From Enterococcus lacertideformus (lineage in GTDB: Bacteria; Bacillota; Bacilli; Lactobacillales; Enterococcaceae): DNA of 55,576 bases. Numbering within the stretch: position 1 is the first letter of the stretch; every line of letters begins with the position of its first letter. The notes under the pieces are model-generated. The model made no database searches, had not been told where the DNA came from, and saw only the letters and a program-made list of their open reading frames with translations. The stretch lies in contig JADAKE010000007.1 of NCBI GenBank assembly GCA_015680865.1, forward strand, positions 1 through 55,576. Reading direction: 5' to 3'. The position numbers and the translations under genes are program-made. Of the stretch, positions 28,090 to 55,429 are shown in pieces.

Positions 28090-28245
28090 AGAGTTTTTCA
28101 TATATTCACTTTATTTTTAGTGATTCACAACAAAAAACTCTATGCCACCGTAGACATAGAGGGACTATTGAATGGATTCAATAAACGTCCTCGGTAGGAA
28201 ATTAAGGTAGATACCACCTACTGTCTTCGGTACAAGTTAATTATT
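28090..28245 (-). promoter_or_regulatory. L10 (rplJL) leader RNA with internal attenuator
   Basis: The minus-strand RNA has the features of the Firmicutes L10 leader: CCGAAGACAGUAGGUGGUA, then CCUACCGAGGACG, and a final hairpin CUCUAUG...CAUAGAG (28138-28161) followed by UUUUUUG. Binding of the L10(L12)4 complex to the kink-turn region is expected to favour that terminator, giving autoregulation. The family is assigned from these motifs; the exact ends are approximate. Confidence 0.8.
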
Positions 28246-28250
28246 AACCT

Positions 28251-40439: not shown

Positions 40440-40662
40440 AATGGCACAGTCCTCTCATCTATATGTTAACTATCTATTCGCTATTTTGGCATAAAAAAAA
40501 AACGTATCAACTCGGTGTTAGTCACTGCGAGTCGTTACGTTAGTGAAGCTCTTCTCACTAACTTTTATCAGAACAGGAACCTGATAAAAACCAATGAAAA
40601 AACAACTTGTCGTTACTATATCATCAACAAACTCTTTTTGCAACCTTTAGTAGGGAATAATT

Positions 40663-53769: not shown

Positions 53770-54789
53770 CTATAAGGCGTTGATTTTTTTCATCGCTTCC
53801 ACTAAAATTTCTACTTCTTTCATCATTTTCACGTAATTCTTTTCGTTTAGTGATTGTTGGCCATCAGACCAAGCACTCAAAGGATCAGGATGAATCTCAA
53901 CAATCATTCCATCCGCACCGCTTACTACGCCTGCTCGCGCCATCGGAGTGACTAAATCCCATGCACCTGTTCCATGGCTTGGGTCAACAATGATTGGAAA
54001 ATGGCTCAATTTTTTGATCACTGGTACAGCACTTAGATCAAATGTATTTCTAGTCGCTGTTTCGTATGTGCGGATCCCACGCTCAATGAAAATAATGTTT
54101 AGATTATTTTGTACAGCAATGTATTCTGCCGCATTTAACCACTCTTCAATTGTACCGGAAATACCCCGTTTTAAACCAATTGGTTTCCCTGTTTTTCCAA
54201 CAGCTTCCAACAAGCGAAAATTTTGCATGTTTCTGGAACCGATTTGAATAATGTCTGCATATTGGGCAACCACGTTGATATGAGCTTCATCCATTACTTC
54301 CGTAATAACTTTCAAGCCGTAGTGGTCAGCCGCTTTACGCATCATTTTTAAGCCTTCTTCTCCTAGACCCTGAAAAGCGTAGGGCGATGTTCTCGGTTTG
54401 TAAGCTCCTCCGCGTAAGATCTTTGCACCACCTGCTTTTGCCATTCGCGCCGTTTCCATTATTTGCGCTTCACCTTCAACCGAACAGGGCCCCGCCATTG
54501 TGATAAATGTGCCATCCCCGATTTTGACACCAGAGACATCCACCACTGTATCTTGAGGATGAAATTCTCGTGAAGTCAATTTATACGTATTTGTAATTGG
54601 TACTGCACGTTCGATAATGTCATATTTTTCAATTGAAATTTTTTGGATCACTTTAGGATCTCCTATTAACCCTAAAACAAATTGATTACTTTTCTGGTTG
54701 ATTTGCACATCTAATCCTTCTTCTTCAATATGTGTAATGATTGGTAATAACTCACTTTTTTGGATACCTGGTTTAATCAATAGAATCAT
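53770..54789 (-). CDS. aroF: 3-deoxy-7-phosphoheptulonate (DAHP) synthase, type I-beta
   Basis: The first enzyme of the shikimate pathway. An N-terminal regulatory ferredoxin-like domain (MILLIKPGIQKSELLPIITH) precedes the barrel with GPCSVEGEAQIMETA, LRGGAYKPRTSPYAFQGLG, KRGISGTIEEWLNAAEY and DPSHGTG. It has 339 residues, as in other enterococci. AAAGGGAG lies before the ATG. It is the first gene after the attenuator leader, so its expression responds to that element. Confidence 0.95.
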   Translation of the reverse strand: MILLIKPGIQKSELLPIITHIEEEGLDVQINQKSNQFVLGLIGDPKVIQKISIEKYDIIERAVPITNTYKLTSREFHPQDTVVDVSGVKIGDGTFITMAGPCSVEGEAQIMETARMAKAGGAKILRGGAYKPRTSPYAFQGLGEEGLKMMRKAADHYGLKVITEVMDEAHINVVAQYADIIQIGSRNMQNFRLLEAVGKTGKPIGLKRGISGTIEEWLNAAEYIAVQNNLNIIFIERGIRTYETATRNTFDLSAVPVIKKLSHFPIIVDPSHGTGAWDLVTPMARAGVVSGADGMIVEIHPDPLSAWSDGQQSLNEKNYVKMMKEVEILVEAMKKINAL

Positions 54790-54929
54790 AGAATAACTCC
54801 CTTTATTGTCGTTTTTATTTGTTTCTTCGCGGTTTTTCCCACTATTTGATTGGTTTACGCAAGTTCTTTCAAATCAACCATTTATTTGCTTTTTCTTGTT
54901 TAGCTACGCTTCGCTCCCCCTTTATGTAC

Positions 54930-54962
54930 AAAAAAGCCCACCGCAGAAAATCTACAGTGCGC
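54930..54962 (-). terminator. Second terminator of the aro leader (segments 6:7)
   Basis: GCGCACUGUAGA (54962-54951) pairs with UCUGCGGUGGGC (54947-54936) around UUU with one G-G mismatch, followed by six U. Its left arm can instead pair over 10 bp with segment 5 (AUCUAUAGUG, 54996-54987) of the first terminator, so the two terminators form a relay. Confidence 0.85.
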
Positions 54963-54978
54963 CCTGAAATAATCAAAT

Positions 54979-55012
54979 AAAAAAGCCACTATAGATTTTT
55001 CATCTATGCGGC
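54979..55012 (-). terminator. First terminator of the aro leader (segments 4:5)
   Basis: GCCGCAUAGAU (55012-55002) pairs with AUCUAUAGUGGC (54996-54985) with a single bulged A and a 5-nt loop, followed by six U (54984-54979). Its left arm can alternatively pair with segment 3 (AUCUAUG and GGC, 55049-55038), which acts as the antiterminator. Confidence 0.88.
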
Positions 55013-55095
55013 GAGCAAGTCATTTCAAACATCCTTAGCCATCATAGATACAAACAAATATCTGTGTTTGCATCCATAAGTTTATGAATACAAAC

Positions 55096-55152
55096 CTATC
55101 TAAAATAGCTAAAGTAATAATTATTCAGTTGTGAACTTAATGTAATTTTCAT
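55096..55152 (-). CDS. Aromatic leader peptide (attenuator ORF)
   Basis: An 18-residue ORF, MKITLSSQLNNYYFSYFR. GGAG lies 8 nt before the ATG, and the predicted promoter start is about 30 nt upstream. Five of the last seven residues are Tyr or Phe (codons TAT TAC TTT AGC TAT TTT), exactly the amino acids made by the operon behind it. The stop codon touches the first hairpin segment. This fits a control peptide whose translation speed reports charged tRNA-Tyr and tRNA-Phe; the peptide itself probably has no function. Confidence 0.85.
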   Translation of the reverse strand: MKITLSSQLNNYYFSYFR

Positions 55153-55186
55153 AATAAACGCTCCAAACTGATACAAGATTGAATCT

Positions 55187-55215
55187 AGTATAGATTTGTT
55201 TCTGAAAGAAGTCAA
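55187..55215 (-). promoter_or_regulatory. Sigma-A promoter of the aromatic operon
   Basis: TTGACT (55215-55210) and TATACT (55192-55187) with an ideal 17-bp spacer on the minus strand. It places the transcript start near 55180, just upstream of the leader peptide. Confidence 0.8.
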
Positions 55216-55429
55216 TATTTTTTTCATAATTTTTATTCTTTGTTTTTCGTGGACTAAGTAGTAGTTGAACTGGGTCTTGTACAAATACAGTGCACCATTT
55301 TGATACGATACGATTCTATTCAAAAGCAAATTAGTTTTGCATGGTATGTAATAGTTGAATTTACGCTATTTTAAGTGATTGGAGTTTATTTAAAATGGAC
55401 TCAATTTTAGTAAAGTATTATCAATTTAA
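55216..55429. other. Intergenic region upstream of the aro promoter
   Basis: AT-rich sequence without a gene. An open frame on the minus strand covers it and the leader, but only its last 18 codons (the leader peptide) have a ribosome binding site and meaning. Confidence 0.4.

Follow-up and report, generated by a model that had tools for sequence, protein, structure and literature searches.

The window, a stretch of 55,576 nucleotides from Enterococcus lacertideformus, carries on its minus strand a putative operon that starts with aroF, which encodes a DAHP synthase 88% identical to that of E. villorum, the best match among those seen. NCBIfam matches identify the ORFs 3' of aroF, as far as about 47958, as aroB (dehydroquinate synthase), aroC (chorismate synthase), tyrA (prephenate dehydrogenase), aroA (EPSP synthase), an aroK-like gene (shikimate kinase), and pheA (prephenate dehydratase), with tyrA and aroK scoring under the curated cut-offs. 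In the part of the minus strand between 47958 and 51700, the aroC, tyrA, aroK, and pheA ORFs look shorter than their relatives or match their models in part—aroC has 345 aa compared with 388 in locus L105, aroK 141 aa compared with 167 in L249—and, as judged by the sequence, frame lesions or errors of sequencing may be present in the operon. The region upstream of aroF features, in order, a promoter-like site, a GGAG, an 18-codon leader ORF, seven RNA segments, and two hairpins with U-runs (Table 1).

Table 1. Features of the aroF leader and of the gene behind it
Feature	Position	Strand	Basis or remark
Sigma-A-type promoter-like site, TTGACT-17-TATACT	55215-55187	-	consensus scan, 10/12 matches
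Shine-Dalgarno (SD) GGAG of leader ORF	55164-55161	-	sequence reading; 8 nt 5' of ATG 55152
Leader ORF, 18 codons, MKITLSSQLNNYYFSYFR and stop	55152-55096	-	ORF kept in 141/142 RF02863-type loci
P0 5' arm, Phe14 codon through stop	55112-55097	-	partner 55050-55035; 15/16 positions pair
Segment 1	55095-55082	-	pairs with segment 2; two-sided changes
Segment 2	55079-55066	-	pairs with 1 or 3
Segment 3	55056-55038	-	pairs with 2, 4, or codon arm; overlaps the P0 3' arm (55050-55035)
Segment 4 (terminator 1, 5' arm)	55012-55002	-	pairs with 3 or 5
Segment 5 (terminator 1, 3' arm)	54996-54985	-	pairs with 4 or 6
U-run of terminator 1	54984-54979	-	sequence and folding
Segment 6 (terminator 2, 5' arm)	54962-54950	-	pairs with 5 or 7; duplex energies of cognate 5:6 pairs, two-sided changes
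Segment 7 (terminator 2, 3' arm)	54946-54936	-	6:7 two-sided changes
U-run of terminator 2	54935-54930	-	sequence, folding, terminator scan
aroF, DAHP synthase, first gene of putative controlled operon	53770..54789	-	NCBIfam match

The SD, the 18-codon ORF, the seven segments, and the two U-run hairpins before aroF that a preliminary description had read from the letters are all present, with the U-runs ending at 54979 and 54930. Its sigma-A promoter stands in part: the site exists, but chance alone would supply matches of this quality here, the consensus scan giving two in 54800-55400 compared with a mean of 2.8 in shuffles. The leader ORF closes with a TAG at 55098-55096, and its C terminus reads Tyr12, Tyr13, Phe14, Ser15, Tyr16, Phe17, and Arg18, placing five Tyr or Phe codons among the last seven. 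The predicted fold of the 250-nt leader has -77.7 kcal/mol compared with -48.8 ± 4.1 kcal/mol for shuffles (z = -7.1; 0/200 shuffles as low). All six pairings, 1:2, 2:3, 3:4, 4:5, 5:6, and 6:7, can be written out. The pairings 3:4 and 4:5 exclude each other, as do 5:6 and 6:7, and each of them is supported by paired cells and two-sided changes. Folding gives -12.7 kcal/mol for terminator 1 (4:5) and -17.1 kcal/mol for terminator 2 (6:7), which are alike in sequence; a simple terminator scan finds terminator 2 only, terminator 1 coming from folding. An eighth pairing, P0, which was absent from the earlier reading, joins the Tyr/Phe codons and the stop to the region of segment 3.

An Rfam search of 54700-55400 finds no T-box family at E ≤ 1, in line with the earlier statement that the leader lacks one. 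A match to RF02863 (sRNA_2410), a family filed as an enterococcal sRNA, lies at 54954-55112 and scores 71.2 bits compared with a gathering score of 61. The window misses the gathering score of RF04312, the trpB motif (39.6 compared with 59 bits), so that only a related architecture is indicated there. Matches to mir-3938 and rliE near the leader are judged to be chance. The minus strand of the window holds two more leaders: a 23S-methyl motif (RF01065) at 40496-40600 and a ribosomal protein L10 leader (RF00557) at 28122-28248.

RF02863 is found at E ≤ 0.01 in 101 of 105 Enterococcaceae genomes (95 over the cut-off), with up to six matches per genome, and at E ≤ 0.001 in 215 of 395 Lactobacillales genomes, Enterococcaceae included (99 over the cut-off). 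The loci read are the window and 141 Enterococcaceae loci among the matches listed, with at least 13 more listed places left out. The leader ORF and its codon cluster, for which conservation in relatives had been predicted, are kept in 141 of these 142 loci, and an SD-like match of at least four bases precedes the ORF in 138 of the 141. The ORF is lost in the aroF leader L100, a natural case of decay, whose genome (G005) keeps the ORF in its transporter leader L081. As judged by comparison with seed proteins, the first downstream ORF of at least 80 codons encodes a TrpX-type substrate-binding protein at 72 loci, AroE at 49, AroF at 13, AroC at four, and other proteins at four: a permease-like protein identified by eye (L096), a dehydroquinate-synthase domain (L238 and L251), and shikimate kinase (L249). 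The leader thus stands before aroF as described, but is not confined to aroF operons, occurring also before aroE, aroC, aroB-like, shikimate kinase, and TrpX-type genes. Outside Enterococcaceae, among the matches listed, 36 of 40 loci feature an SD-preceded ORF with a terminal aromatic cluster; three of the remaining four carry the ORF behind a weaker SD, and the fourth is L308. Two of the leaders outside Enterococcaceae precede genes for prephenate dehydratase (L302) and DAHP synthase (L313). At ten loci (L276, L283, L300, L301, L304-L306, and L310-L312), the usual stop is changed and the ORF runs on for three codons, ending for example in YFSYFRYCL, its position in the RNA being unchanged.

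The transporter leaders are the best matches to RF02863. Its founding member, sRNA_2410 of E. faecium, was seen as two transcripts by Northern blot (PMC5593968), and the words leader and attenuat- are absent from the main text of that paper; likewise, neither 2410 nor attenuat- occurs in the accessible parts of PMC7724050 and PMC10117718. That these loci serve as trans-acting small RNAs, as the filing has it, is hardly credible: each lies directly 5' of genes for aromatic amino acids and has retained the ORF, the terminator, and the alternative pairings, and attenuators make short terminated leader transcripts anyway. They may still have a secondary role in trans. The two Northern bands are not claimed to be the products of the two aroF-leader terminators, the best matches to RF02863 being of the transporter type.

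The RF02863 model starts inside codon -5, counted back from the stop, and includes the codons from there to the stop, so that their conservation is partly ascertained. Codon -6, outside the model, encodes Tyr or Phe in all of the 116 unique N-free leaders, and codon -7 does so in 91 of them. At the last seven codon positions of the same leaders, 555 of 812 residues are aromatic, compared with eight of 1384 elsewhere. Their scarcity in the variable part is a property of the leader frame, with 8/1229 compared with 50/938 and 75/991 in the shifted frames. The Tyr/Phe leaders carry aromatic codons at -7, -6, -5, -3, and -2, following an N-terminal part of variable length and sequence. The C-terminal peptide is strongly conserved, and the codons AGC and TTT are nearly fixed as well, in a codon table selected with a pattern requiring Ser and aromatics near the end; the counts at codons -6 and -7 and the 555/812 were made without this pattern. 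A conserved peptide of this kind, perhaps QLNN-YFSYFR, might arrest its own ribosome by sensing, from within the tunnel, the free amino acid and not the charging of tRNA. This reading is quite improbable, since the near fixation extends to the codons, which is what pairing in P0 would demand, QLNN is missing in many relatives outside Enterococcaceae, and the Trp leaders described below have quite different peptides at the same place. There is also an RNA reason for the conservation of QLNN: its codons pair with the SD region (55130-55176 in the window, and the corresponding part of relatives), cognate pairs having -9.6 kcal/mol compared with -8.6 kcal/mol for permuted ones (109 unique pairs; 0/2000 reach). 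This pairing may tune the translation of the leader and explain why QLNN is conserved.

The covariation expected by the preliminary description was evaluated in two alignments with given structures: A1, with 63 aro leaders, and A2, with 68 transporter leaders. The on chain (1:2, 3:4, and 5:6) is paired in 97.1% (A1) and 96.3% (A2) of the cells and shows two-sided changes in nine pairs in each alignment, compared with 26-50% paired cells and at most four (A1) or five (A2) two-sided pairs in a control with slid partners. For the off chain (2:3, 4:5, and 6:7), the values are 93.8% and 92.1% paired cells and two-sided changes in 15 and 11 pairs, compared with 30-46% and at most nine and six in the control. 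The helices 1:2 to 6:7, hence, pair and change two-sidedly above the slid controls. Shuffles fail to reach most of the covariation measures, but for the pair types in A2, 13 and 19 of 500 shuffles match the observed value; the slid control is preferred because the shuffle control keeps no relatedness.

P0 is paired in 96.9% of the cells in A2 and hardly varies, with no two-sided changes among the 68 transporter leaders. Its cognate arms have -15.3 kcal/mol in Tyr/Phe leaders (28 unique pairs) and -14.6 kcal/mol in Trp leaders (34 pairs), compared with -8.4 and -10.3 kcal/mol when the arms are crossed between the families and -4.8 and -6.6 kcal/mol when shuffled. Among the Tyr/Phe leaders, cognate arms have no advantage over non-cognate ones (-15.3 compared with -15.15 kcal/mol); within the Trp set, they are better than permuted ones (0/2000). 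P0 appears, from these comparisons, to co-evolve with codon identity between Tyr/Phe and Trp leaders, and in the folding models, it would keep an untranslated leader off.

The Trp leaders belong to the trpB motif (RF04312), which occurs at E ≤ 0.01 in 104 of 105 Enterococcaceae genomes (42 over the cut-off). Among the best 30 Enterococcaceae loci, 29 feature an ORF that follows an SD and has two Trp codons spaced three positions apart, mostly ending in WQNWRR; the 22 best-matching loci from outside Enterococcaceae all have a Trp-containing ORF behind an SD, with W-x-x-W in 19/22 and a single Trp codon left in 3/22. Like the RF02863 leaders, the motif has its ORF just upstream and precedes TrpX-type transporter genes (L144), and also genes for TrpB-like PLP-dependent enzymes (L142, L258, and L263). 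Like the window leader, it has an equivalent of 2:3 and a terminator, with an antiterminator in the right shoulder of P1 (PMC11109978). It differs from the window leader by Trp instead of Tyr/Phe codons, by a weak 5:6, and by its publication as a strong riboswitch candidate, for which a classic attenuator was not ruled out (PMC11109978). This candidacy and the very high sequence conservation of segment 3 would suit a metabolite riboswitch that binds an aromatic amino acid or a related ligand directly. Such a switch is, however, very improbable here: the conserved upstream part is an SD-preceded ORF with an in-frame aromatic cluster that changes its identity (YFSYFR, FFFSFFR, YYVSYY, and WQNWRR), aromatic codons are nearly absent from the rest of the ORF in its own frame only, segment 3 changes in compensation for codon identity between Tyr/Phe and Trp leaders, and the ORF and the pairings account for the conservation.

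The pairing 5:6 had been proposed to hand the antitermination state from the first terminator to the second, and the comparison strongly supports this. Cognate duplexes of segments 5 and 6 have a mean of -13.0 kcal/mol compared with -11.6 kcal/mol for within-class permutations (0/5000 reach) and -5.3 kcal/mol for shuffled segment 6. This test covers 98 unique pairs from 138 loci, L100, L215, L229, and L230 being dropped, and includes some misplaced segment-5 windows (e.g., L104 and L177), which weaken the result. Two-sided changes occur in four of 10 pairs in A1 and two of nine in A2, above the slid controls. Outside Enterococcaceae, the mean is -12.4 kcal/mol compared with -5.1 kcal/mol for shuffled sequences (38 scored of 40 loci). 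A conserved 5:6 is not claimed for the Trp-type leaders, where the complementarity is short and weak (means of -7.8 and -7.1 compared with -5.4 and -5.9 kcal/mol when shuffled; 27/30 and 13/22 loci scored).

The transporter leaders lack a U-run after 4:5 in 71 of 71 scored cases, the 72nd, L229, having no segment 3 by the search pattern. All 68 aligned transporter leaders have one mismatch in 4:5, located at a segment-5 column that is paired in 5:6, and segment 5 fits segment 6 better than segment 4. In the segment search, 4:5 carries a U-run in 13/13 aroF leaders (including L100, which is mis-segmented), 37/49 aroE leaders, and 4/4 aroC leaders at a threshold of six T in eight, by which near misses such as L102 are scored as without. 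Because of the missing U-run, 4:5 of the transporter leaders would act only via 5:6, and the conserved feature is the relay and not the doubling of terminators; the earlier idea that two serial terminators tighten the off state needs amending in this sense. Alternatively, attenuation could be right and 5:6 a functionless leftover, if terminator 2 originated by the copying of terminator 1. Segment 6 does resemble segment 4 because of the similarity of the two terminators, and the short 5-6 complementarity of the Trp-type leaders agrees with such an origin. Against it stand the advantage of cognate pairs over all within-class permutations, the two-sided changes, the preference of the transporter segment 5 for segment 6 next to a 4:5 without a U-run, and the pairing outside Enterococcaceae, which together make a leftover unlikely.

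The dependence of these pairings on ribosome position was modeled by a codon scan, in which the leader is folded to the end of segment 4 and an assumed ribosome footprint hides all of it up to 14 nt beyond the start of the A-site codon. The mean probability of 3:4 in 139 Tyr/Phe leaders is 0.12 without a ribosome, 0.08-0.12 for codons -14 to -10, 0.43 for codon -9, and 0.74-0.78 for codons -8 to -4, from which it declines to 0.63 at -3, 0.40 at -2, and 0.32 at the stop. In 48 Trp leaders, scanned without four Trp-type loci (L142, L255, and L258, with no segment 3, and L163, with no SD), it is 0.18 without a ribosome, 0.66-0.69 at -6 to -4, 0.55 at -3, and 0.10 at the stop; Trp lies at codon -6 in 88% and at -3 in 85% of the Trp leaders. 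The window leader itself gives 0.02 without a ribosome, 0.97 from Tyr12 to Tyr16, and 0.34 at the stop. Two results fit a ribosome readout less well: about 0.3 of 3:4 persists at the stop in the Tyr/Phe leaders, and the scan of the Phe-only leader L093 is blurred, with 0.65 at the stop. In these models, the antiterminator would form best with a ribosome on or near the Tyr/Phe codons. The dependence extends to 5:6 once segment 6 is made: its probability is 0.20 without a ribosome, 0.69 at codon -6, and 0.36 at the stop in 66 leaders outside the TrpX class and 0.12, 0.44, and 0.27 in 67 transporter leaders. With segment 5 made and segment 6 not yet made, 4:5 is favored at equilibrium in every ribosome state, and with a stalled ribosome, it reaches 0.80 compared with 0.17 for 3:4 in aro leaders and 0.83 compared with 0.02 in transporter leaders. 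The on state must, therefore, rest on kinetics and timing or on the gain from 5:6.

The reading of the locus as leader-peptide attenuation is strongly supported by comparison of the sequences, namely by the ORF with its codon cluster in 141 of 142 loci and by covariation. From the pairings, their conservation, and the ribosome dependence in folding models, the aroF leader is very probably a ribosome-mediated transcription attenuator that reads the charging of tRNA-Tyr and tRNA-Phe and includes an RNA strand-exchange relay. With no ribosome or an early stall, the codon arm would take segment 3 into P0, leaving segment 4 free for 4:5, and transcription would end at the first U-run or, after leak-through, at 6:7 and the second U-run. 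A ribosome stalled on the Tyr/Phe codons would block P0, so that 1:2 forms, segment 3 pairs with segment 4, and segment 5 is free for segment 6; with 5:6 formed, neither terminator would form and aroF would be transcribed. Segment 1 follows the stop codon, and a ribosome at the stop would thus cover it and block 1:2, upon which 2:3, then 4:5, and then 6:7 would form and transcription would stop. Segment 5 would in this way carry the decision of 3:4 to the second terminator; in the transporter leaders, 4:5 would serve as relay only and not as terminator. The window RNA, hence, appears to be a switch that senses the supply of tyrosine and phenylalanine through a ribosome translating a tiny peptide.

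The trp and pheA attenuators of E. coli feature a short ORF with pathway codons, exclusive hairpins, an intrinsic terminator, and antitermination by a stalled ribosome. Compared with these, the RF02863 leaders have seven segments and P0 instead of four segments, would pass the choice via 5:6 to a second hairpin, would have 1:2 blocked by a ribosome at the stop, and form one family for synthesis and transport genes with several loci per genome. Firmicutes are generally described as users of T-boxes and TRAP for aromatic amino acids. Histidine leader peptides before hisS and hisZ in bacilli are a case of leader-peptide attenuation in Firmicutes (PMC2965389), and the uORFC-13-1 motif, with 24 representatives, is a proposed Phe-codon uORF upstream of a terminator and an Acholeplasma aroF (PMC8632094). 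The former concern histidine and the latter belongs to another lineage and is likened to the window leader by description, not by sequence; the accessible parts of both papers mention no relay. Streptococcus suis trpX, the same kind of transporter gene, is preceded by a Trp T-box (PMC9382623), of which the window leader has none. Among the literature matches listed, mostly titles and the beginnings of abstracts, supplements aside, there is no description of this leader, and the strings YFSYFR and QNWRR are absent from the main texts searched. By its testable features, the mechanism would be that of a known leader-peptide attenuator; the relay and the P0 arm have no described case among these matches.

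The leaders before TrpX-type genes come in further sorts, Phe only (ending in FFFSFFR) and Tyr only (ending in YYVSYY), and the genomes G009 and G010 hold Phe-only, Tyr-only, and mixed sorts at their transporter loci. When the leader sorts are placed on a tree of TrpX-type proteins (82 selected out of 128; long-branch warnings for L272, L294, L298, L279, and L264), the Trp leaders correspond to one change (support 100/100), the Tyr-only leaders (two rows) to one, and the Phe-only leaders to four, one of them due to L189, which is mistyped since its leader runs into N. The four leader sorts require six changes, including that of the mistyped L189, compared with 31.8 in shuffles, which suggests that amino-acid-specific codon swaps follow transporter clades. 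The relatives of the window leader seem to form a large misfiled family for the synthesis and import of aromatic amino acids in lactic acid bacteria. It is likely that this family of aromatic attenuators spans Lactobacillales, with the ribosome position passed from P0, 1:2, and 2:3 via 3:4 to 5:6 and a distant terminator, the internal hairpin of transporter leaders being non-terminating; the sensed amino acid would be set by arm-compensated codon swaps (Tyr and Phe, Phe only, Tyr only, or Trp), the leader would predict the transporter substrate, and the trpB motif and sRNA_2410 would be members. If true, a leader-peptide system at many aromatic loci of lactic acid bacteria would change the T-box and TRAP picture of Firmicutes, and two Rfam families, RF02863 and RF04312, would be re-filed. 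In addition, the substrates of TrpX-type ABC transporters could be read off from their leaders, and the natural variants—4:5 with and without a U-run and four codon specificities—would lend themselves to testing the transfer of a decision from hairpin to hairpin.

Among 398 genomes sampled evenly across the phylum, RF04312 gives three matches at E ≤ 1e-5, two of them in genomes already counted. The third, L315, has a Phe-rich ORF ending in IFFNNHFR before a gene of the sodium:neurotransmitter-symporter family. The first long ORF behind L252, the best RF04312 match of the order search, encodes a reverse transcriptase (RVT_1), which is perhaps an insertion between this leader and its gene. A plasmid collection yields two partial leader matches only: NZ_CP135066.1 of Streptococcus suis (72.9%) and NZ_CP116511.1 of Enterococcus gallinarum (84.2%).
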